NCBI RefSeq assembly: GCF_014467015.1
Contig: NZ_CP058559.1
Location: forward strand, 1,736,001-1,800,000
Length of the DNA stretch: 64,000 nt
Direction: 5' to 3'
From: Alkalicella caledoniensis
Lineage (GTDB): Bacteria; Bacillota; Proteinivoracia; Proteinivoracales; Proteinivoracaceae
The position numbers and the translations under genes are program-made. This document shows positions 1,529 through 25,785 of the stretch, piece by piece. The notes under the pieces are model-generated. The model was not told where the DNA came from. It saw nothing but the letters and a program-made list of their open reading frames with translations, and searched no databases. Position 1 is the stretch's first letter. The number at the start of each line of letters is the position of its first letter.

Positions 1529-1548
1529 AAGTGGCCCGGGGCCACTTT
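1529..1548 (-). terminator. Rho-independent terminator of the amino-acid ABC operon
   Basis: AAGTGGCC-CGG-GGCCACTT hairpin with a run of eight A on the plus strand at its left side, i.e. a U-run in the leftward transcript. It overlaps the stop codon of the ATPase gene. Confidence 0.85.
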
Positions 1549-2269
1549 ATAATATTTTGCTTAAAAACTCCTGGGTACGTTCATTTTTGGGGTTGGAGAA
1601 TATCTCTATAGGGCATCCTTCTTCGACTATACACCCTTCATCAACATATACGACCCTATCTGCAACCTCTTTTGCAAAGCCCATCTCATGGGTAACTATT
1701 ACCATGGTCATGCCTTCTTCGGCTAGATCTTTCATTACCTGCAAGACCTCACCGACGAGCTCAGGGTCCAAAGCTGATGTAGGTTCGTCAAATAACATTA
1801 CTTCAGGTTCCATTGCTAGCGCTCTTGCTATGGCCACACGTTGCTGTTGTCCACCTGATAGCTGGGATGGATAAGAGTACGGTTTGTCGCTTAACCCAAC
1901 TTTATCTAGTAAGTCTAAGGCCAGTTTTTTAGCCTCTTCCTTCTCCATCTTTTTTACTTGAGTTGGCCCCTCCATAACATTCTCCAATGCTGTCATATGG
2001 GGGAATAGGTTAAATCTTTGGAAAACCATACCTACTTTTTGACGCATTTTATTAATTTTGCTTTCCAAGCCTAGAATCTCTTCTCCATCTATTACTATCT
2101 TTCCTTTTTTAAATTGTTCTAGATAGTTAATACACCTAAGCAACGTACTCTTCCCAGAGCCACTGGCACCTATTATTACAACAACCTCTGATTTATCTAC
2201 AGTTAAGTCTATATCTTTTAATACATGTAGTTTTCCAAAATGTTTGTTTAATCCTGATATTTTAATCAT
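1547..2269 (-). CDS. Polar amino-acid ABC transporter, ATP-binding protein (GlnQ/ArtM type)
   Basis: 240 aa from ATG 2269; an in-frame start 15 codons upstream lies inside the permease gene and is less likely. Walker A GASGSGKS is at residues 34-41, the signature LSGGQ at 137-141 and Walker B with [11 protein letters not shown] at about 159-168. It energises uptake of an amino acid by the permease encoded immediately upstream. All ATPase motifs are intact. Operon order is binding protein, permease, ATPase. Substrate (Glu/Gln, Arg, His, Lys or Cys class) is not determined by sequence. Confidence 0.95.
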
Positions 2270-2282
2270 ATATTCTATACAC

Positions 2283-2930
2283 CTACCTTTCACCAACACT
2301 AAGTTTCTTCTCAACCTTATCTACAATTAATGAAATTATTGTAGTTATAATCCAATAGTAAAGACCAGCTATAAAGAAAATTTCATAGTTAAAGGTTGAA
2401 GCCACAAAGGTTCGAGATGTTTGAATAATTTCCCTTACACCGATTACCGATGCCAAGGAAGAGTCTTTAAGGGCTATACTGAATTGATTTCCTAGGGGAG
2501 GAATTGCCCTTTTAAGTGCTTGGGGCAAAATTATTCTGCGCATACTTTGAGAATGAGACATCCCCAAAGACCTAGATGCTTCCATTTGGCCATTGGCGAT
2601 AGATATTATGGCACCCCTAAATATCTCAGCTATATATGCACCATTATGAATTGCAAGGGCTATGGATGCAGACATAATTCTATCCAAGTTGATGAATGGC
2701 AATGAGCCAATAACCATATAAATAGTTAGAATTTGTAATAATAAAGGGGTACCCCTTATGATACTTATATAAATTCTGGCGATATATTGTAAGGGCAGTA
2801 TACGTGACACTCTGAAAAGTCCCATTATCAATCCAATTACTGTCCCGAATAATATCCCCATTAAAGTAATCCTGAGTGTTAAAACAATAGCTGAATTAAA
2901 CATAAATAAATAATCTAATAATACTTCCAA
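2283..2930 (-). CDS. Polar amino-acid ABC transporter, permease (HisM/GlnP type)
   Basis: 215 aa, typical for the His/Glu/Gln/Arg/opine family. It starts at TTG 2930, with AGGAGG 9 nt upstream. Several hydrophobic membrane segments are visible, with the inner-membrane EAA-type loop ([20 protein letters not shown]) near residues 135-155, where the ATPase docks. It sits between the binding protein and the ATPase; the ATPase Shine-Dalgarno overlaps its end, suggesting translational coupling. Confidence 0.95.
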
Positions 2931-3002: not shown

Positions 3003-3788
3003 TTATCTTGGTTGACTGATGTCCTCTCCAAAGTATCTATAACTAATCTCTTCATAGGTTCCATCAGCGATCATTGCAGCTAAAGCAGTATTTACTGCCT
3101 CTCTGAGCTCATCATCACCTTGTCGAAAAGCTACTGCTAGCCTTTCTGTGTACAACCACTCCCCAACGAATTCAAAATCATAATTAAACTCTTCTATTGC
3201 CATCAAACCAACTAGAAAATCCGTTATTACTCCATCTATATTGCCGTTATCTAGTTCCCTCAATGTCATGTCATCACCATCATAAAATACCGGGGTTGCT
3301 CCTAATTCTTCTACCACGTCGGCAAAAGTGGTACCAGTAACAACACCTATCTCCAAACCTTCCATATCTTCAAAACTACTAATACCAGACCCTGCTTTAA
3401 CAACTAATTGTGCTCCAGAGTAGTAGTAGGGATCTGAAAAGTCCGCCCTTTGTTGTCTCTCTTCTGTTATTGCCATACTACCTAAAATTCCGTCGTAATC
3501 CCCTGTTTGTAGGCCTACTAAAATTCCATCCCAAGCAGTTGTAACGGGCTTAGATTCAACACCTAATCTTTTGGCGATTTCAGCTGCTATCTCAACATCA
3601 AAACCAACTAACTGGTTATTATCATCATAATAGTTAAATGGGGGATACCCGCCACTCATTGCAAAACTAATGGACCCTCTTTCAATTACTTCTTCATAAG
3701 TATTTTCTGCATCACTTGAACAACCGAATAAACCAATAGATAAAACTAACACAATACTCAATACAAAAAACTTCTTAAATAAACTCAT
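3003..3788 (-). CDS. Amino-acid ABC transporter, substrate-binding lipoprotein (SBP family 3)
   Basis: 261 aa from ATG 3788, chosen because a lipoprotein signal (MSLFKKFF, hydrophobic core, lipobox LFGC) follows directly and GGGAGG lies upstream. After cleavage the cysteine would be lipidated and the protein anchored outside the membrane. The body shows the family-3 pattern: GGYPPFNYYDDNNQLVGFDVEIA near the start, TAWDGILVGLQTGDYDGI, and the hinge region GSMAITEERQQRADFSDPYY. It delivers the ligand to the downstream permease/ATPase. The structured RNA at 3893-4145 ends about 105 bp upstream, so this operon may be controlled by it or merely adjoin it. Confidence 0.95.
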   Translation of the reverse strand: MSLFKKFFVLSIVLVLSIGLFGCSSDAENTYEEVIERGSISFAMSGGYPPFNYYDDNNQLVGFDVEIAAEIAKRLGVESKPVTTAWDGILVGLQTGDYDGILGSMAITEERQQRADFSDPYYYSGAQLVVKAGSGISSFEDMEGLEIGVVTGTTFADVVEELGATPVFYDGDDMTLRELDNGNIDGVITDFLVGLMAIEEFNYDFEFVGEWLYTERLAVAFRQGDDELREAVNTALAAMIADGTYEEISYRYFGEDISQPR

Positions 3789-3892
3789 GTAATAAAAAAC
3801 CTCCCAATATTTTTTTTGCAAATATCAAAAGTAAATTGAAGAGACTTCTACTTTTATTTGGGTTATATGCCATTATTTTCCCTTATTGAGGA

Positions 3893-4145
3893 TGAAAAAA
3901 AGCACTCTAGTCTCATAAAGAGACTAGAGTGCTTGGATTTCGTCTATTAGACTAGCCCAGACCACCACTTATTGTGATAGTCTCGCTTTGGCCCCCCTGA
4001 GCCAAAACAAAGCCACTTTCCTCATAAAGTTTTTCACATTTATGCCTCAGCTATTATGGTTAACTTACTTCCATCCAACATAGGTCGTATAGAAGCTCGC
4101 CTAACCGCTTACTACATAATGCTAATTCACTTTTCATATCTGCCT
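3893..4145 (-). ncRNA. Free-standing structured RNA of about 250 nt, family not assigned
   Basis: A leftward transcript is bounded by a good SigA promoter (4152-4180) and a 15-bp terminator hairpin (3900-3934). No ORF of note lies inside. Helices read by eye: a 10-bp hairpin pairing 3974-3983 with 3959-3968 around a 5-nt loop; an 8-bp hairpin pairing 4001-4008 with 3985-3992 around a G-rich loop; a CAUAAA/UUUAUG hairpin; a long-range AGC-AUUAUG / CAUAAU-A-GCU helix enclosing GGUUA/UAACC and CUUC/GAAG. It does not show the lysine, T-box, SAM, TPP, FMN, cobalamin or RNase P core motifs. A non-riboswitch clostridial RNA such as the raiA-motif class is one possibility that I cannot confirm. The segment GAGACUA could alternatively pair with UAGUCUC of the terminator arm, so a switching function is also possible. 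Confidence 0.7.
3900..3934 (-). terminator. Terminator of the structured RNA
   Basis: Perfect 15-bp stem (AAGCACTCTAGTCTC with its complement) and ATAAA loop, followed by seven U in the leftward transcript (plus-strand A-run 3894-3900). It is one of the strongest terminators in the window. Confidence 0.9.
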
Positions 4146-4151
4146 ATAAAA

Positions 4152-4180
4152 ATTATAACACGAAGGGCAAAGATGGTCAA
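4152..4180 (-). promoter_or_regulatory. Promoter of the structured RNA
   Basis: -35 TTGACC (4180-4175), 17-nt spacer, -10 TATAAT (4157-4152). Predicted transcription start is about 4145. It lies just beyond the stop codon of the lipoprotein gene ending at 4186. Confidence 0.85.
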
Positions 4181-4185
4181 GAATT

Positions 4186-5394
4186 TTATTTAAATGCATC
4201 TTTAATGTGGTGATATTGATTCCCTGCATTCCATATTAAGTATTCATTTATGCCTAGCTCACGGGCAGCCCTTATTTGCTCACGAACTTCGTGGGGTCCA
4301 TATGCAGGCTTACCTTGAGTAAATCCTTGTAACCACGGCCTAATAAGGGTTTCTGACCCCATCTCTTCCATTCTTTTTTGGTAGTCTAGCAATGCATATT
4401 TAATTGTTTCATAGGGTCTTGCATTGTTAGATGGATATAAACCGTAGTTATTATGTGCATAGTGAGATGGATAGACCATTGGACAGATAATATCTAGGAC
4501 GTCTGGACCTAAGATGGTTTCTAGGTGTTGACCTATACCCATGTCACTGGTGGTGGTTCCGATTAGTCCAAAAATATCTGCGGATAATTCTACATCATAG
4601 GGTTCTATTTCGCTAGCCATGAACTTCATAAACTCAGCGATAACTTTAGCTCTATACTGTTCTTCATCCTCATTAACTAACTCAAAAGTGGCTTTATGAT
4701 CATATCTAACCCTATCACCTACTCTATCAGGAAACCTTATATAATCCAACTGGATTTCCCTAAAGCCTAACCTTGCTGCTTCCTTTGCAATATCAGCAAC
4801 ATATTCCCAAACTTCTCTGCTATGGGGGTCTACCCAAGATACATTGCTCCCAGATTCAACCCATAGTGAACCATCTAAGTTCTTAACCGCTAAGTCTTGT
4901 CTAGCTCTACCAAGTTTATTATCTTTAAAAACAACAATCCTTGCAATAGGGTAAATGTTATTTGCTGCTAATTGTTCCATGAATGCTTCGATGTCTCTAA
5001 TCTTATTCACAGGAGCACCTATCTCATGTGCTAATTCTACCTCGGTAGCCAAGAAAGATATTTCTCCCTTATCATCTTTAACATCTATTACCATGGAGTT
5101 TAGTTCTGTTTCGTTTACCATGTCAACTAGGCTTGCAAACCTCTCTGTTAAGCCCGCAGAGTTACCAGTTAAGTATATACCTTTAACATGTTCAGGCCTT
5201 TCGATATATGGGCCTGTAACAAGGGATGGCTGAGGCTCTGGTTCTTCTTCAGTGTCATTATCTTCATCTGTTGGTTCCGAGATGGGACTTTCATCACTGG
5301 GGTCTTGTGGGTTTGGTGTAGTTGTGGATGTACTACAACCTACTAGTAAGAGCAGTAGTAAAAAGATACTTAAAAACTTAATGTACTTATTAAT
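4186..5394 (-). CDS. Putative glycoside-hydrolase-like lipoprotein (DUF4015 type), apparent ATT start
   Basis: The open frame extends 91 codons upstream of its first ATG (5121) without a stop. It encodes a complete lipoprotein signal: MNKYIKFLSIF, a leucine run and lipobox LVGC with Cys at residue 20. This is followed by an acidic Ser/Thr/Pro/Glu linker (about 22-58) and the first strand of the TIM-barrel domain (VKGIYLTGNSAG). No ATG, GTG or TTG exists between the Shine-Dalgarno AAAGGGGG (5410-5403) and the signal peptide; ATT at 5394-5392, 8 nt downstream, is the best start, giving 402 aa. The domain resembles the putative glycosyl hydrolase family with motifs REIQLDYIRFPD and DIICPMVYPSHY. 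It is expected to be extracellular and membrane-anchored, acting on an unknown polysaccharide. Starting at ATG 5121 would remove the signal and the first barrel strand. Confidence 0.85.
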   Translation of the reverse strand: MNKYIKFLSIFLLLLLLVGCSTSTTTPNPQDPSDESPISEPTDEDNDTEEEPEPQPSLVTGPYIERPEHVKGIYLTGNSAGLTERFASLVDMVNETELNSMVIDVKDDKGEISFLATEVELAHEIGAPVNKIRDIEAFMEQLAANNIYPIARIVVFKDNKLGRARQDLAVKNLDGSLWVESGSNVSWVDPHSREVWEYVADIAKEAARLGFREIQLDYIRFPDRVGDRVRYDHKATFELVNEDEEQYRAKVIAEFMKFMASEIEPYDVELSADIFGLIGTTTSDMGIGQHLETILGPDVLDIICPMVYPSHYAHNNYGLYPSNNARPYETIKYALLDYQKRMEEMGSETLIRPWLQGFTQGKPAYGPHEVREQIRAARELGINEYLIWNAGNQYHHIKDAFK

Positions 5395-5839: not shown

Positions 5840-6820
5840 TTATCTACCTATTCCTATTACCCTAACCCTTACATCACCAATACCATAAGGGCGTAATCCA
5901 ATTTGATTTGCTGCGGCTTCCGATAAATCTATTATTCTTCCAGCAATAAATGGTCCTCTGTCATTTATTCTAACTGTTACTGATTTTCCTGTTCTTAAGT
6001 ATGTTACTTCTACCATTGTTCCAAAGGGGAGTGTTCTGTGCGCTGCTGTTAAAGCATTCATGTTATACACCTCACCGTTTGCTGTAGTTCTACCATGGAA
6101 TTTTGACCCATAATATGAGGCTACACCAACCACAGCATAATCCCTACTAGATCTTGAAGCTAACTCTCTAGTGTTCTGATGAATTACACCTTGTACCGGT
6201 TGAGAAATAACTTCCTCTTCAATTTTTTTTCTATCTACTTCAACCCCGTCATTGTATGTTACTTTATAAGTTATTTTCCTAACTCCGTCCTTTGATTGCT
6301 TTTGTACCCTTTGTGACCCAGCCTGTAGTCTAGAGTCATAGTAGTAAAGGTTTGTTGCAGGTATCTTAACTTCTTCAGTCTCCATTTTACTGATTACCCT
6401 TACTACTTGGATCTGTTGGCCAGACTTGAGACTTCTTTCTAAAGGCATGTTGACAATGTCACCCCCACCAAGCTCAATCTTTTGTTCCTCCAAAAGATCT
6501 TCGATGGTCTCAGCCCAAGTAATTATTTCTTGTTCCTCTCCGTCTACTCTCAGTACCACAAGTGCCGCCTTTTTAATGGCAATGTAGTCTGTCACTAACT
6601 CTTCGTCAATACCAGGAAATACTCTCTGTGTTTTTTCATCTACAACTATATCTGCATCTTGTAATATTTCTTCAATTATAGTTTTATTGGTTTTTACTTC
6701 AACGAATCCAGTGTCAGTGAAAATTGTGACAGTACTTTTAGGCTGAAAACCAGAAGCCACGGTCACTGCCGCTGTTGCCACCAAAGCACCTGTGACTAAC
6801 AGCGTCTTCATCTTTGACAT
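5840..6820 (-). CDS. YabE-like cell-wall protein with G5 and RlpA-like barrel domains (paralog 1)
   Basis: 326 aa from ATG 6820 (GAGGTG 6 nt upstream; a GTG three codons earlier is rejected on spacing). It has an N-terminal signal/anchor, two DUF348 ubiquitin-like repeats (about 30-85 and 90-145), a G5 domain (about 150-222) and a C-terminal double-psi beta-barrel of RlpA type (about 230-326) with [19 protein letters not shown] and INDRGPF..GRIIDLS. Such proteins bind or remodel peptidoglycan. Its location downstream of near-origin genes parallels Bacillus yabE, although yabE carries a 3D rather than a clear RlpA C-terminus. A second copy lies immediately upstream at 7108-8166. Confidence 0.88.
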
Positions 6821-7074
6821 TTTTATCACCTCATAAAAATTTTATGCTATAATAATGGAATTTATTATAGTATACGTTCTAGTTTTCCCCCAAAACATAA
6901 TATTATACGCTTTTACACAGCAATATTAACATTTTATACCAAGGGTTCAAATAAGGCAAGAATTATGTCGAATTTTGTCATATAAATAGAAAACTAAGCA
7001 TCTACTTTTATTACCAATTAGTCTAGAAAATAAGTAAAACAGCTAATAAAACACTTTTGTTAGCACAAAAAAAA

Positions 7075-7096
7075 GTCAGAGCACTATAGCTCTGAC
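7075..7096 (-). terminator. Terminator of the second YabE-like gene
   Basis: GTCAGAGC-ACTATA-GCTCTGAC hairpin with an A8 run on its left side (U-run in the leftward RNA), 12 bp beyond the stop codon. It separates the two paralogs into independent transcripts. Confidence 0.85.
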
Positions 7097-7107
7097 CCTT
7101 CAATATA

Positions 7108-8166
7108 CTATTTAACTACCTCTATTCGTACTCTACCTATTCCGGCAGAGTAGAGACCTATTTCTTTGGCAGCTGCTGCAGATAAGTCAATAATTCTATT
7201 TGCCACATGTGGACCTCTATCATTTATCACAACAATTACTGACTTTCCTGTAGCTAAATATGTTACTTTAACTTTGGTTCCAAATGGATAAGTATTATGA
7301 GCAGCTGTAAAGGCATTCATGTCAAATCTTACCCCACTTGCAGTATAATTGCCATGTAACTCTGATCCATAAAATGAGGCTATACCCTCTGTGGCATTAG
7401 TAGTACCTGTATTGACTGACGCGTTGGTTTCCCTACTGCCACTCCTAGATGCAAGTGCCTGAGTTCCCCTAAGAACAACTCCTATAACTGGTTCAGTGAT
7501 TACTTCTTCACTAACCTTAGTCTTAGATACCTGAACCCCATCATTAAAAACTACCTCGTAAGTAACTTTCTTGGCACCTTCTTTTGCCTGAGTTTGCACC
7601 TGTTCTTTACCTAATGCTAGGGATGAGTCGTTTCTATACGTTGTTTGTGTAGGAATTGGCACTTCTTCATATACTAAATTTCTCTGAACTCTAACTATCT
7701 CTACTTGTTGCCCGTCTTTAACAATTTCATCTAGGGATAAGCTGATAATATCTTCATCTAGTTCAATACTTAATTCTGCAAGTAAATCTTCTACAGTTTC
7801 TGACCAAGTAATAATTTCTAGGTCTTCACCATCTACTTTAACTAAAACCGATGCTCCGTTTACTATAGTGATGTAATCGGTTTCTACTTCCTCGTCAATT
7901 GAAGGGTAAACTTTCTGGTAGTTTTCATCAAAGACTATATTTGCCTCTGCTAGAATCTCAGCAACTATAGTTTTATCGGTGGTAATTTCAGTGAATCCTT
8001 CAGAAGTAAAAATAGTTATAATACTTTTATGTCCTGCGACTTGAAGTTGATTCAGTCCTGCAAGTATTACTATACTTAATAGAAGAACTACTGAACTGAT
8101 AATTAGCTTTATTTTTTTCGAAAACATATTCTTTTTATCTTTGGTCCTATTTCCGATCATCGTCAT
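7108..8166 (-). CDS. YabE-like cell-wall protein with G5 and RlpA-like barrel domains (paralog 2)
   Basis: 352 aa from ATG 8166 (AGAGGTGAT upstream; the preceding in-frame GTG is too close). It has the same architecture as the gene at 5840-6820: a positively charged N-terminus and membrane segment (IIISSVVLLLSIVILAGL region), two DUF348 repeats, a G5 domain and an RlpA-like barrel (GIASFYGSELHGNYTASG..INDRGPHVANRIIDLS). A Thr/Asn/Ser-rich spacer before the barrel is longer than in paralog 1. The two are clearly paralogous but diverged throughout, so the duplication is not recent. It is expected at the cell surface. Confidence 0.88.
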   Translation of the reverse strand: MTMIGNRTKDKKNMFSKKIKLIISSVVLLLSIVILAGLNQLQVAGHKSIITIFTSEGFTEITTDKTIVAEILAEANIVFDENYQKVYPSIDEEVETDYITIVNGASVLVKVDGEDLEIITWSETVEDLLAELSIELDEDIISLSLDEIVKDGQQVEIVRVQRNLVYEEVPIPTQTTYRNDSSLALGKEQVQTQAKEGAKKVTYEVVFNDGVQVSKTKVSEEVITEPVIGVVLRGTQALASRSGSRETNASVNTGTTNATEGIASFYGSELHGNYTASGVRFDMNAFTAAHNTYPFGTKVKVTYLATGKSVIVVINDRGPHVANRIIDLSAAAAKEIGLYSAGIGRVRIEVVK

Positions 8167-8367
8167 CACATCACCTCTCTTATTAAAAGGTATATTTCTG
8201 CCTTATATCCATTAGTACCAACTTTTATACATTTAAAAAGCAAGTATATAAATTATATACTAAAAATTCCTTTTTGGCTAGGGTTTTAGGGTGGGAATTA
8301 TTAGGACCTAAGTCATAAGATGGTAGTTAAAGGTTAGTGATCCACAATCAGTAAAGAATTAAGGCTA

Positions 8368-8487: not shown

Positions 8488-8492
8488 AAGTA

Positions 8493-8606
8493 CCTAGCGA
8501 CGTCCTACTCTCCCAGGGGGTAACCCCAAGTACCATCGGCGCTGAAGAGCTTAACTGCGGTGTTCGGAATGGGAACCGGTGTATCCTCTTCGCCATCATC
8601 ACTAGA
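8493..8606 (-). rRNA. rrf: 5S ribosomal RNA (operon 1)
   Basis: The leftward strand shows the conserved 5S core CCGAACACCGCAGTTAAGCT and GCGCCGATGGTA. The terminal helix CTAGTGA / TCGCTAG defines the ends to within 1-2 nt. Confidence 0.96.
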
Positions 8607-8682
8607 TGAAACTATCACACTAAATTCATAGCAAGGTTTTCAAAGGTTTGTTCTTAATTGTTAATTGTCAATTGGTTTTTTA

Positions 8683-11655
<2,973 letters not shown>

Positions 11656-11909
11656 AAATAAATGCTTACGCATTTGATCGTTTATTGCTCTAAGAACACT
11701 CTTTGTTTTTCGTTAACTAAGTTAATAGTTAACTAACCTTTGCTTATTGAATTTCGTGTGTAGTTTTCAAAGATCGTTAGAAAGAAAATGACCAACATAG
11801 TTAGCCTTTAGTTCTTTCAAAATTAAACAGCATATACCATATTTGAGTTGTGATTTTGTTTTGTGTAATACTTAAGAAGTAGATATCACTTAATGTGATA
11901 TCAGTGTCT

Positions 11910-13440
<1,531 letters not shown>

Positions 13441-13680
13441 TTGAAAAGTTATATCATTCGCACATCGCTATTGGCAGTTAGCAGTTAGCTAAATACTAAT
13501 AACTTAATGCGTTGATTACTGACTTCAGACTTTCGTCTGGTTTTAATCACTTTAAACTCAAATTCGAAATTAACTTTTACCAAGTTATATTTCTTATGGT
13601 ATAGTGCTGTTCAATTTTCAAAGAACTGTCAGTAGCTCGTGCTACTTTTTTTGTATCATCACCTCTCGGCGACAAAGACT

Positions 13681-13709
13681 ATCTTATCATTTTTTATTCA
13701 TGTTGTCAA
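13681..13709 (-). promoter_or_regulatory. rRNA promoter, operon 1
   Basis: -35 TTGACA (13709-13704), 17-nt spacer, -10 TAAGAT (13686-13681). A leader of about 240 nt follows, containing the antitermination-like GTTCTTTGAAAATTGAAC motif around 13605-13625. The 13710-13930 interval upstream is AT-rich with no gene seen. Confidence 0.85.
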
Positions 13710-13946
13710 TACTTTTTTATTTTTTATTTTTCAAAAGTGTTGCTTGCCTATATTGTTACCTTTAGGCATTTTTTATTTTGAAAATTAAAATGTTGCTCGT
13801 GTTAAGCAACGAATTATATCATACCACTAGATCTATTTTCGGTCAATGGATATTAATGTAATTTATTTATTTGAACTAGAATCTATTTATTTAAGATCTT
13901 TTCCCATCCAACTACTGAAAGAACATACTGGGTTATATGATGTAGT

Positions 13947-14007
13947 GTAAAGCTAGCTTGACATTAATGTTCTACTTCTATATAATTAGCGTAAAGTTAA
14001 CTTTACG
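13947..14007 (+). promoter_or_regulatory. Paired operators of the XRE regulator
   Basis: CGTAAAGTTAACTTTACG (13990-14007) is a perfect 18-bp palindrome at the expected transcription start. A related imperfect site GTAAAGCTAGCTTGAC (13947-13962) overlaps the -35. Centres are 44 bp apart, about four helical turns, as expected for cooperative autorepression. That the XRE protein binds here is inferred from position. Confidence 0.7.
13958..13986 (+). promoter_or_regulatory. Consensus SigA promoter of the XRE cassette
   Basis: -35 TTGACA (13958-13963), exactly 17-nt spacer, -10 TATAAT (13981-13986): a perfect consensus promoter facing right, against the direction of the rRNA operons. Confidence 0.88.
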
Positions 14008-14032
14008 TTGTGTTGGGAGGTGAATATTTTAA

Positions 14033-14248
14033 GTGAAGAGTCGTTTAGAGGAAATTAGGAAAGCAAAAAAATTAAGTCAAGATGATTTAGCAGAAGCTCT
14101 ACAAGTTTCCAGGCAAACTATAAGTTCATTAGAAAATGGTCGCTACAATCCCTCAATTCTATTGGCATTTAAAATATCTCACTTTTTTAAAGTTAGGATT
14201 GAAGATATTTTTATATATGAGGAGGAGGAAGATGGAGAACAAGCTTAA
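14033..14248 (+). CDS. XRE-family transcriptional regulator
   Basis: 71 aa, a single Cro/C1-type helix-turn-helix: KSRLEEIRKAKKLSQDDLAEALQVSRQTISSLENGRYNPS, then the common LLAFKISHFFKVRIEDIF tail. It starts at GTG 14033 with GGGAGGTGA upstream (spacing on the long side). It most likely represses its own consensus promoter through the two palindromes upstream. It overlaps the next gene by 17 bp, so the two are translationally coupled. Plus-strand orientation, opposite to nearly all neighbours, and its location between two rRNA operons suggest an inserted cassette. Confidence 0.93.
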   Translation: MKSRLEEIRKAKKLSQDDLAEALQVSRQTISSLENGRYNPSILLAFKISHFFKVRIEDIFIYEEEEDGEQA

Positions 14249-14645
14249 AAAGTACAGATTTAAACGTGCTATTTTTCAGTTTGTAGCCTTTGCCGTAGGA
14301 TATGAACTATACAGCTGGTTGGGAAGTGGAAACGACTTCCTAAGGTTTTTGTCCGGGGGTTTATTTAGTTTTATTACTATCGAAATCTACTATACTTATA
14401 TTCTTAAAAAAAACCCCAAAGTATTGGATAAAGAAAAACACCTTGAAAATGATGAACGCATAAAAATCATTAAAGAAAAAGCAGCTAACTCTACATTGGT
14501 TGTCATATTAGTCCTTTTAGTGGGGTCTTATATCTCTGCGCTAATAATGCAACTAGAGGACCTACATTTCTATTTAAGTATACTAATTGGATTTATTGTT
14601 ATCCTTAATAAAATTAGTAGATATTACTGGAACAGTAAAATTTAA
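14232..14645 (+). CDS. Small membrane protein of the XRE-coupled DUF2178 type
   Basis: 137 aa from ATG 14232, with AGGAGG just upstream; the frame is open further left but that part only overlaps the regulator gene. It shows four predicted membrane segments in two pairs (about residues 12-28, 33-50, 85-105, 110-128) separated by a charged loop KKNPKVLDKEKHLENDERIKIIKEKAA. This matches the layout of DUF2178-like proteins that commonly follow a short XRE regulator. The function is unknown. It is expected in the cytoplasmic membrane and controlled with the regulator. Confidence 0.75.
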   Translation: MENKLKKYRFKRAIFQFVAFAVGYELYSWLGSGNDFLRFLSGGLFSFITIEIYYTYILKKNPKVLDKEKHLENDERIKIIKEKAANSTLVVILVLLVGSYISALIMQLEDLHFYLSILIGFIVILNKISRYYWNSKI

Positions 14646-14789
14646 TCGTTTGGTTAGAGAACTAGCAATTAGGAGACAGGAAAACCTTTTAAAAAACTCG
14701 ACCCCATTTAGTGGCGGTTGGTGATAGATGGTGGTGGTTCTTTTGGTGCCGATGGTGGCTGAGGGTTTGTATGTTTTAGATTTCCATGC

Positions 14790-14824
14790 AAAAAAGACAC
14801 CAATCATAAGATTGATGTCTTTTA
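14790..14824 (-). terminator. Terminator of rRNA operon 2
   Basis: AAAAGACACCAATC-ATAA-GATTGATGTCTTTT. It is the same hairpin as operon 1 but with one mismatch in the stem (GATTGATG instead of GATTGGTG), shared with operon 3. The 14646-14789 gap to the cassette holds no gene. Confidence 0.85.
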
Positions 14825-14829
14825 AAGTA

Positions 14830-14943
14830 CCTAGCGACGTCCTACTCTCCCAGGGGGTAACCCCAAGTACCATCGGCGCTGAAGAGCTTAACTGCGGTGT
14901 TCGGAATGGGAACCGGTGTATCCTCTTCGCCATCATCACTAGA
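14830..14943 (-). rRNA. rrf: 5S ribosomal RNA (operon 2)
   Basis: The sequence matches the operon 1 copy at an offset of 6337 bp. Confidence 0.96.
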
Positions 14944-15019
14944 TGAAACTATCACACTAAATTCATAGCAAGGTTTTCAAAGGTTTGTTCTTAATTGTTA
15001 ATTGTCAATTGGTTTTTTA

Positions 15020-17992
<2,973 letters not shown>

Positions 17993-18246
17993 AAATAAAT
18001 GCTTACGCATTTGATCGTTTATTGCTCTAAGAACACTCTTTGTTTTTCGTTAACTAAGTTAATAGTTAACTAACCTTTGCTTATTGAATTTCGTGTGTAG
18101 TTTTCAAAGATCGTTAGAAAGAAAATGACCAACATAGTTAGCCTTTAGTTCTTTCAAAATTAAACAGCATATACCATATTTGAGTTGTGATTTTGTTTTG
18201 TGTAATACTTAAGAAGTAGATATCACTTAATGTGATATCAGTGTCT

Positions 18247-19777
<1,531 letters not shown>

Positions 19778-20016
19778 TTGAAAAGTTATATCATTCGCAC
19801 ATCGCTATTCGCAGTTAGCAGTTAGCTAAATACTAATAACTTAATGCGTTGATTACTGACTTCAGACTTTCGTCTGGTTTTAATCACTTTAAACTCAAAT
19901 TCGAAATTAACTTTTACCAAGTTATATTTCTTATGGTATAGTGCTGTTCAATTTTCAAAGAACTGTCAGTAGCTCGTGCTACTTTTTTGTTTCATCACCT
20001 CTCGGCGACAAAGACT

Positions 20017-20045
20017 ATCTTATCATTTTTTATTCATGTTGTCAA
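20017..20045 (-). promoter_or_regulatory. rRNA promoter, operon 2
   Basis: -35 TTGACA (20045-20040), 17 nt, -10 TAAGAT (20022-20017), same as operon 1. Homology with the operon 1 upstream region continues to about 20150 and then ends. Confidence 0.85.
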
Positions 20046-20224
20046 TACTTTTTTATTTTTATTTTTCAAAAGTGTTGCTTGCCTATATTGTTACCTTTAG
20101 GCATTTTTTTATTTTTGAAAATTAAAATGTTGCTCGTGTTAAGCAACGAAGATTACTATATCATTAATTATCTTGTTAGGTCAATGTAAATTAATGGTTT
20201 ATTACATTAAAATTATAGTCAAAA

Positions 20225-20278
20225 AGCCTAGCGCGGAATTGCAAAAGAGATTACGCGGATTTTAGGGTTAGTTTTGGA
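20225..20278. repeat. Dispersed repeat, copy 1
   Basis: AGCCTAGCGCGGAATTGCAA followed by AAAGAGATTACGCGGAT and a GTTAGTTTTG end. It resembles 55994-56054 over its whole length. It lies in the gene-free 20046-20449 interval between operons 2 and 3. Confidence 0.6.
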
Positions 20279-20292
20279 GGGTTAGGATGAGG

Positions 20293-20366
20293 AATTCAAA
20301 TCTTAGCCACTAATGGCACTATTATAATAGGTCAAGAATTTCACTAACTTACACAAAAGATTTTAT
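20293..20366. repeat. rrn-downstream repeat, copy 2
   Basis: Near-identical to 8368-8440 (AATTCAAATCTTAGCCACTA start). It sits downstream of the operon 3 terminator; operon 2 lacks it and has the XRE cassette in that place. Confidence 0.8.
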
Positions 20367-20449
20367 TATTTTTAGTGTTAGTTAGTGTAGAGATTTTTAG
20401 TGAAGTTAGTGGCAATTTTTTATTCGTATTGGTGTAAAATTACATATGC

Positions 20450-20484
20450 AAAAAAGACACCAATCATAAGATTGATGTCTTTTA
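20450..20484 (-). terminator. Terminator of rRNA operon 3
   Basis: The same imperfect hairpin as operon 2, with a U-run in the leftward RNA, next to the 5S gene. Confidence 0.85.
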
Positions 20485-20489
20485 AAGTA

Positions 20490-20603
20490 CCTAGCGACGT
20501 CCTACTCTCCCAGGGGGTAACCCCAAGTACCATCGGCGCTGAAGAGCTTAACTGCGGTGTTCGGAATGGGAACCGGTGTATCCTCTTCGCCATCATCACT
20601 AGA
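20490..20603 (-). rRNA. rrf: 5S ribosomal RNA (operon 3)
   Basis: Same sequence as the other copies. The 5S-23S spacer differs from operons 1 and 2 from about 20645 to 20700. Confidence 0.96.
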
Positions 20604-20703
20604 TGAAACTATCACACTAAATTCATAGCAAGGTTTTCAAAGGTTTTATTCTTAAAGTTTTTCCTGACTGCTGACTACTGTCAGCTGACAGCTTAAATAT
20701 TTA

Positions 20704-23676
<2,973 letters not shown>

Positions 23677-23867
23677 AAGTAGAACAGTTCTTTTCACTGT
23701 TCATGTACACAAATCCTTAGATTTGTTTGATCTTTATTGCTCTAAGAACACTCTTTGTTTTTCGTTAACTAAGTTAATAGTTAACTAACCTTTGCTTATT
23801 GAATTTCGTGTGTAGTTTTCAAAGATCATATATTTAAAAATGCATAAGCATTTTTAAAGCAAATTAG

Positions 23868-23944
<77 letters not shown>

Positions 23945-24060
23945 TAGTTAATTTAATTGTTTTAAGGTCAAAAGCTTTGCAAAGGTGAACCGTCTTTGCA
24001 AAAAGGCTCTGGGTCCTTTTTCTGTATTTATTTTCTAAAACGAAGTTTTAGATAATAAAG

Positions 24061-24136
24061 TGGTGGAGATGAGCGGGATCGAACCGCTGACCCCCTGCGT
24101 GCAAGGCAGGTGCTCTCCCAGCTGAGCTACACCCCC
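24061..24136 (-). tRNA. tRNA-Ala (anticodon TGC)
   Basis: Starts GGGGGTGTAGCTCAG, anticodon loop CTTGCAC, T-arm GGTTCGATCC, encoded CCA. It lies between tRNA-Ile and 16S in operon 3. Confidence 0.96.
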
Positions 24137-24254
24137 ACATTTTTGAAAGAAACTAGTTCTTTCAAAATTAAACAGCATATACCATATTTGAGTTGTGATT
24201 TTGTTTTGTGTAATACTTAAGAAGTAGATATCACTTAATGTGATATCAGTGTCT

Positions 24255-25785
<1,531 letters not shown>

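Follow-up and report, generated by a model that had tools for sequence, protein, structure and literature searches.

A structured RNA locus upstream of an amino-acid ABC transporter operon

The stretch of DNA analyzed here (64,000 nucleotides from Alkalicella caledoniensis, hereafter the window) carries on its minus strand, at about 4146-3895, a locus in which a promoter is followed by a highly structured non-coding RNA with a terminator. The locus is flanked by two ORFs on the same strand, 4186-5121 and 3003-3821: the promoter begins a few bases past the stop codon of the former, and about 106 nt separate the end of the RNA from the probable ATG of the latter (3788, chosen by eye), which encodes a substrate-binding protein. 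This spacing agrees with the 105 bp to an amino-acid ABC operon given in an initial annotation of this DNA. The parts of the locus and the genes that follow it are listed below.

4152..4180, minus strand: promoter TTGACC-17-TATAAT with TG before the -10 box; probable start site near 4145
4028..4131, minus strand: 5' domain, from covariation, mapping onto the window and motif counts
4131-4130/4029-4028, minus strand: helix P2a of the 5' domain
4126-4123 (AUUA) with 4035-4033 (GAA), minus strand: loop-E-like module 1; the consensus is AGUA/GAA
4122-4115/4044-4036, minus strand: helix P2b of the 5' domain
4113-4110 (AGUA) with 4048-4046 (GAG), minus strand: loop-E-like module 2
4109-4107/4051-4049, minus strand: helix P3 of the 5' domain
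4063..4100 (4100-4086/4077-4063), minus strand: hairpin P4 with conserved GAGY and UAYG, from covariation and mapping
4012..4022, minus strand: 5' strand of P1 (putative anti-terminator), AGGAAAGUGGC in the window, consensus AGAACUGGGG; partner within 3932-3919
3985..4008, minus strand: hairpin Pa, two-sided changes in 6 of 9 pairs
3959..3983, minus strand: hairpin Pb (the 10-bp hairpin of the initial annotation), two-sided changes in 6 of 7 pairs, 99% of cells paired
3935..3957, minus strand: hairpin Pc with a conserved GUGAGUY...GGCGAAAC internal loop
3895..3934, minus strand: intrinsic terminator, stem 3934-3920/3914-3900 and U tract; its 5' arm (conserved CACUCUA) is the 3' strand of P1
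3003..3788, minus strand: amino-acid ABC substrate-binding lipoprotein, the putative regulated gene (TIGR01096, 182 bits, below the cut-off of 256)
2283..2930, minus strand: amino-acid ABC permease, next gene (TIGR01726, above cut-off)
1547..2314, minus strand: amino-acid ABC ATPase, next gene (best match GlnQ NF007027, 359 bits, below the cut-off of 379)

The promoter (4180-4152) matches the consensus at 11 of 12 positions, and the terminator (3934-3900) has 15 pairs followed by a T run. Taken alone, counts of such patterns say little: the 1-kb region contains 3 promoter-like sites against 3.9 expected from shuffles, and 2 terminator-like sites against 0.5. The RNA body (4146-3893) has a fold energy of -93.6 kcal/mol, compared with -61.7 (SD 4.7) in 200 dinucleotide shuffles (z = -6.8), none of which equals its stability, and no ORF of at least 60 aa overlaps it on either strand. 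The promoter, non-coding folded body and 15-bp terminator seen in the initial annotation are present as described, on the minus strand, and its structured RNA of about 250 nt is real, by fold stability as well as by conservation and covariation in relatives; judged by sequence comparison, the latter two place the window RNA far beyond chance.

The ORF preceding the RNA (4186-5121) gave no NCBIfam match at E 1e-5. ORFs that look similar by eye occur at two other loci (L002, 132-1343; L003, 138-1343), and this ORF stays adjacent to the RNA in all three genomes of the window's family. Elsewhere on the minus strand, the window contains two adjacent, similar-looking ORFs of 329 and 353 aa (5840-8169), which we take by eye to be G5/3D-domain proteins of the RpfB or YabE type, and three rRNA operons arranged head to tail (8492-25784). 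The 16S, 23S and 5S copies of these operons have identical covariance scores, and the operons look like recent or homogenized copies.

Phyletic distribution

A nucleotide search of 41 genomes identified copies of the RNA in two further genomes of the window's family, where an operon of the same kind follows, and one copy in a distant family, where it precedes a betaine-type ABC ATPase (a type confirmed by a protein-family scan). A covariance model of the 3' part built from 4 sequences (R1) had matches in 30 of 299 genomes. Four of these matches (L033, L034, L035 and L037) were judged false, being by eye terminator-only or T-box-like; another, L036, was initially doubtful and was later matched by a second model, R2 (E 1.3e-7). 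Scanning named genomes with a sequence pattern yielded 57 loci, 55 of which have the conserved core by eye (L064 and L077 are without it). They come from Acetobacterium, Thermincola, Fusibacter, Maledivibacter, Anaerotalea, Propionigenium, Psychrilyobacter, Fusobacterium mortiferum, Izimaplasma, a Treponema, another Spirochaete and others.

The R2 model was built from 71 sequences, with the 3' arm of the terminator omitted. It was matched in 30 of 398 genomes from the window's phylum, 17 of 98 from the phylum of a Propionigenium, 16 of 391 from the class of an Acetobacterium, 4 of 295 from the phylum of an Izimaplasma, 2 of 21 from one order and 1 of 149 from the phylum of a Spirochaete, the last match being the centre genome itself; these samples overlap partly and include centre genomes picked for carrying the RNA. 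Together, the covariance models and the pattern scan place the class in Bacillota, Fusobacteriota, two Spirochaete genomes and Izimaplasma. A genome may carry up to 4 copies, with 3 or 4 in five genomes of the Propionigenium-phylum sample and a single R2 match in the genome of the window. In one contig (G779:C145, 23828-26035; L169 and L182), two divergently oriented copies are separated by about 2 kb; AblA follows one of them and an amino-acid ABC binding protein the other. We aligned 98 copies; a 72-sequence alignment was obtained by removing 8 near-duplicates, and L078 (run of N) was omitted from one of the alignments. The homolog collection and covariation test proposed in the initial annotation thus yielded relatives in several phyla and helices with significant covariation.

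Secondary structure and covariation

Covariation supports a division into two domains, one a long helix interrupted by two loop-E-like modules, the other a four-way junction. The 5' domain runs from P2a through an internal loop, P2b, a second internal loop and P3 to the hairpin P4; in the 3' junction, P1 closes Pa, Pb and Pc. Under the R2 structure, 94.2% of 2250 cells are paired, compared with 80.1% when shuffled and 38-45% when slid, and 22 of the 32 pairs show two-sided changes. Statistical support was assessed on 95 of the 98 full-length copies (L031, L036 and L153 omitted; 262 columns) against a null in which substitutions are redistributed on the tree. Eight column pairs reach E < 0.05, all of them in helices and with 79-98% standard pairs. 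Further pairs from the same helices follow from E 0.07; we call only the eight pairs significant because pairs unrelated to helices appear from E about 0.6 (50-144). For the P4 column pair 46-76, an equally high value occurred in none of 60 simulated null alignments.

The two internal loops share a motif, AGUA opposite GAA, which we take to be the bulged-G (loop E) pattern. Among the 98 copies, loop 1 has AGUA in 92, GAA in 88 and both strands in 83; the corresponding counts for loop 2 are 77, 67 and 63. Both modules of the window deviate from this consensus (AUUA/GAA and AGUA/GAG).

Three other candidate features were set aside. A long-range GAGC/GGCUU pairing, taken from the 4-sequence fold, was not upheld by eye in the larger alignment and is absent from the top 75 pairs. 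An extension of P1 by the column pair 134-211 is suggestive, with 95 of 95 standard pairs, but is not claimed (E about 37, with a single double change across the tree). Finally, a minimal start-stop ORF in the conserved GUGAAGUA was rejected, the third codon often being no stop by eye.

Two predicted partners of the terminator's 5' arm

By eye, the 5' arm of the terminator, CACUCUAACUCU, is nearly invariant, and its 3' arm varies via wobbles; therefore, the 5' arm may have a second partner, the conserved AGAACUGGGG that precedes Pa. The helix formed by these two strands, P1, has standard pairs in 843 of 882 cells across the 98 copies. Its outermost pair (n = 71) is U-A in 23, G-C in 18, U-G in 15, A-U in 5, G-U in 5 and something else in 5 copies. 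Tested singly, the P1 pairs do not covary significantly against the tree null: the best of them, the outer pair, has E about 1 and keeps pairing in two of four double-change branches.

Predicted folds place the arm in the terminator in all 98 full transcripts. When transcripts are cut after the arm, at least 4 expected base pairs of P1 form in 57-59 of the 98; in a control comparison, this was the case for 57 of 98 real and 148 of 490 strand-shuffled transcripts (mean 4.7 versus 2.5 pairs). P1 of the window is weaker, with 5 of 9 model pairs standard, and its 7.6 expected base pairs arise in shifted registers. In the predicted fold of the window transcript cut after the arm, P1, Pa, Pb and Pc all form alongside the P2 domain. 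By sequence and the folding model, P1 and the terminator are mutually exclusive, with the 5' arm of the terminator as their common strand.

The initial annotation had pointed to a different switch, in which GAGACUA of Pb would pair with UAGUCUC of the terminator. This pairing has 7 bp in the window but reaches at least 6 bp in only 3 of 98 copies, each belonging to the window's family, and we rejected a switch between the 5' strand of Pb and the terminator arm as not conserved. The conserved partner of the arm is the upstream AGAACUGGGG, not the 5' strand of Pb.

Genes behind the RNA

We took the first ORF on the RNA's own strand as the first gene, irrespective of any gene lying on the opposite strand, and used BLAST clusters as gene classes. 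The first ORF starts 1-325 nt past the end of the model (median 66), and 94 of the 98 copies precede one of five gene classes. Betaine-type ABC transporters follow 24 copies (ATPase first in 20, permease first in 4), BCCT betaine transporters 22, amino-acid ABC substrate-binding proteins 24 (the window included), lysine 2,3-aminomutase AblA, an enzyme of acetyl-beta-lysine synthesis, 18, and APC-type permeases 6. The four exceptions are a threonine-synthase-like protein (L075), a D-Ala-D-Ala ligase (L157), an HPRT (L036) and one locus that ends before any ORF (L074). Cut-offs of NCBIfam models were passed by all 20 betaine ABC ATPases and by the second-gene ATPase in all four permease-first loci (TIGR01186), by all 22 BCCT proteins (TIGR00842) and by the 11 AblA proteins scanned, of 18 (TIGR03820). 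For the amino-acid substrate-binding protein (window, L085), APC (L062) and Opu permease (L042) classes, representatives only were scanned, and they fall below the cut-offs. The second gene of 10 AblA loci falls into a cluster whose one scanned member passes the AblB model (beta-lysine N-acetyltransferase).

Among 20 loci fetched later, at least 2 of which repeat known loci, 18 fit these classes or AblB: 7 have an amino-acid substrate-binding protein, 5 AblA, 4 an AblB-like protein and 2 a BCCT transporter. Of the remaining two, one has a PLP enzyme and the other a first gene of neither kind. AblA lies behind both of the two weakest matches among the later loci (E 3e-4 and 6e-4), which points to specificity.

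Betaine uptake and acetyl-beta-lysine synthesis are osmoprotection functions, and the downstream gene set, as read from sequence, appears to serve mainly osmoprotection; passages of PMC9337991 likewise link ablA to osmoprotection. The gene in the window, which encodes part of an amino-acid importer, can be counted only as a putative osmolyte system. Its genome also has a BCCT gene elsewhere, which is not under the RNA because the sole R2 match lies at a different place. Related PLP enzymes (46% identical) follow the RNA in two loci, L075 (6049-7350) and L173; the L075 protein is threonine-synthase-like but below cut-off. These loci fall outside the betaine theme and might hint at the ligand.

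Comparison with known RNA families

A scan with the 4227 models of Rfam 15 gave no match at 3893-4146, whereas rRNAs and tRNAs were matched elsewhere in the window, and there was no gathering-level match at the RNA in 37 further loci (19 + 18). With relaxed E-values, the best matches in 3860-4210 were far below gathering and mostly microRNA models on the terminator hairpin. We therefore rejected membership in a known Rfam family; this check had been suggested in the initial annotation, whose statement that the RNA matches no familiar riboswitch core holds across all 4227 models. The models presumably include the Na+-I riboswitch family, for which there was no match at the RNA in the window or the 37 loci.

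No description of the class was found in sections or passages of PMC9337991, PMC8632094 and PMC11109978 (most weak candidates of the last are in its supplement only), or by word searches of PMC2864571 and PMC6429828. The RNA class is apparently undescribed.

Several known systems resemble it in part. According to passages of PMC9337991, the Na+-I riboswitch (DUF1646 motif) is an ON switch in which aptamer and terminator have a common strand, as proposed for our class, and it is likewise linked to ablA, eam and other osmotic genes. However, the construct described there has 66 nt and two stems, P1 and P2, whereas our class is about 240 nt long, with two domains and a four-way junction. The c-di-AMP riboswitch (RF00379) controls osmotic-stress genes via a terminator, as stated in parts of the same paper and as proposed for our class; its model has no match at the RNA, and although it occurs in 17 of 40 RNA-bearing genomes, there is none anywhere in the genome of the window. 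The trpB motif (SRC-39-1) is, in passages of PMC11109978, likewise distributed over Firmicutes and Fusobacteria, mostly before an amino-acid-type ABC transporter, and likewise combines a terminator with an antiterminator. Yet the description there gives it two or more hairpins, places the antiterminator in P1 and has it sometimes preceding trpB, and those passages do not mention betaine or ablA genes. No first-gene cluster of ours was named trpB (members scanned in part; L075 is the threonine-synthase-like PLP enzyme). The trpB motif is the closest description found; as far as that text goes, it differs in size and genes, and it may conceivably coincide with part of our class. The proX motif (PMC8632094) and the opuB motif (PMC11109978) are riboswitch candidates that also precede glycine-betaine-type transporter genes, but in sections of these papers the former is mostly from Spiribacter and the latter mostly from Enterobacteriaceae, and ribosome-binding-site control is proposed for both.

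The T-box leader (RF00230) is another large leader with an antiterminator and a terminator. Two weak R1 matches (L034 and L037) looked T-box-like by eye, but RF00230 has no match at the RNA, T-boxes being found elsewhere in L013, L046 and L065; the T-box antiterminator sequence was not seen by eye in the RNA.

Mode of action and alternatives

The position of the promoter bears on whether the RNA acts in cis. A near-consensus site (at most 2 of 12 mismatches to TTGACA/TATAAT) precedes the RNA in 69 of 97 copies (with no mismatch at all in 21 of these), versus 5 of 97 in shuffled controls; behind the RNA, in 68-nt stretches starting 30 nt past the model end, such a site occurs in 1 of 97. With the promoter before the RNA and almost never behind it, the downstream genes appear to depend on transcription passing the terminator. 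An autonomous abundant RNA (raiA-like or 6S-like), located by chance before transporter genes with incidental read-through, would also have a good promoter and a strong terminator, and by default the locus should yield a terminated RNA of about 250 nt. However, the short distance to the first ORF, the recurrence of five functional classes, the near absence of promoters behind the RNA and the presence of up to 4 copies per genome, with the four copies of G461 preceding four different gene types, make this reading highly improbable, and we rejected it. The autonomous RNA gene put forward in the initial annotation is therefore unsupported, the same RNA standing before different osmoprotection and transport genes in 98 copies; of its two options, the controlled terminator is the better one.

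We consider it probable that the window RNA serves the amino-acid ABC operon as its 5' leader, a riboswitch-like attenuator that is ON with an osmotic signal and that belongs to a widespread, apparently undescribed cis-acting class mainly controlling osmoprotectant genes. Comparison among relatives shows the class with its structure, the dual role of the terminator arm, the set of genes that follow and where the promoter lies; we infer that the RNA itself senses an osmotic signal, such as a K+ or Na+ ion, ionic strength or an osmolyte, in the ON direction. RNA polymerase would start at the promoter and produce the 5' domain, then the 3' four-way junction (P1, Pa, Pb and Pc). Without signal, the terminator would displace P1, and transcription would stop near 3895 with an RNA of about 250 nt as its product; with signal, the folded junction would hold P1 until the polymerase has passed, and the transporter operon would be made. 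An ON switch is predicted because the closing helix of the junction and the terminator use a common strand, provided that the signal binds the junction. As is typical of a riboswitch, the conserved structure lies upstream of functionally related genes, and its expression platform is, in sequence and the energy model only, exclusive with a conserved helix.

The osmotic state is suggested as the signal by the downstream genes. Osmotic upshift raises the cation level and ionic strength, and for this reason a cation or ionic strength is favored. Amino acids such as lysine may be the signal, given that 42 of 98 contexts are AblA or amino-acid ABC importers; the 46 of 98 with betaine systems speak against this. 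The chances are about even that this is a large orphan riboswitch class that reads the osmotic state directly (K+, Na+, total ionic strength or a key osmolyte), independently of c-di-AMP, and that turns on the uptake of betaine and of amino acids as well as acetyl-beta-lysine synthesis in Bacillota, Fusobacteriota and a few Spirochaetes.

Importers are often repressed by their own substrate, which would suit an OFF switch, in which a signal such as an accumulated osmolyte or amino acid destabilizes P1 and favors the terminator as feedback; the arm is also paired in the terminator in every predicted fold of a full transcript. On the other hand, P1 closes the conserved junction, so binding to the junction is expected to stabilize it, and the top covarying pairs include no conserved third strand that would sequester the 5' strand of P1; the OFF direction is thus doubtful. 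A regulatory protein, either an RNA-binding antiterminator or a repressor, might sense the leader in place of a small molecule or ion: the conserved antiterminator/terminator pair fits protein-controlled antitermination too, and the two loop-E-like modules, common as they are among the copies, could be protein sites. Still, the size of the RNA, its two domains and its many near-invariant bases seem more aptamer-like, the class spans several phyla and unrelated genes, and no first-gene class is a regulator, all of which makes a protein sensor unlikely. As for a second class of c-di-AMP riboswitch, the gene types are those reported for c-di-AMP riboswitches (osmotic stress), and the diadenylate cyclase domain (PF02457) is present in 37 of 40 RNA-bearing genomes. 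However, no RF00379 match was found at the RNA, and three genomes of one genus (G025, G108 and G170; 98, 98 and 94% complete) carry the RNA before AblA with no PF02457 match found. Because these RNA-bearing genomes have no detectable diadenylate cyclase, c-di-AMP is unlikely as the ligand, and a second class of this kind is very improbable.

How bacteria sense their osmotic state is an old open question. If the preferred reading, direct osmotic sensing by a riboswitch-like leader, is confirmed, the RNA would be a new class of gene-control RNA in several phyla, present in up to four copies per genome and tied to osmotic adaptation. One answer to the osmosensing question would then become testable in vitro, with purified RNA and a terminator read-out, and the uncharacterized amino-acid ABC transporters behind the RNA, such as that of A. 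caledoniensis, would gain a candidate function.
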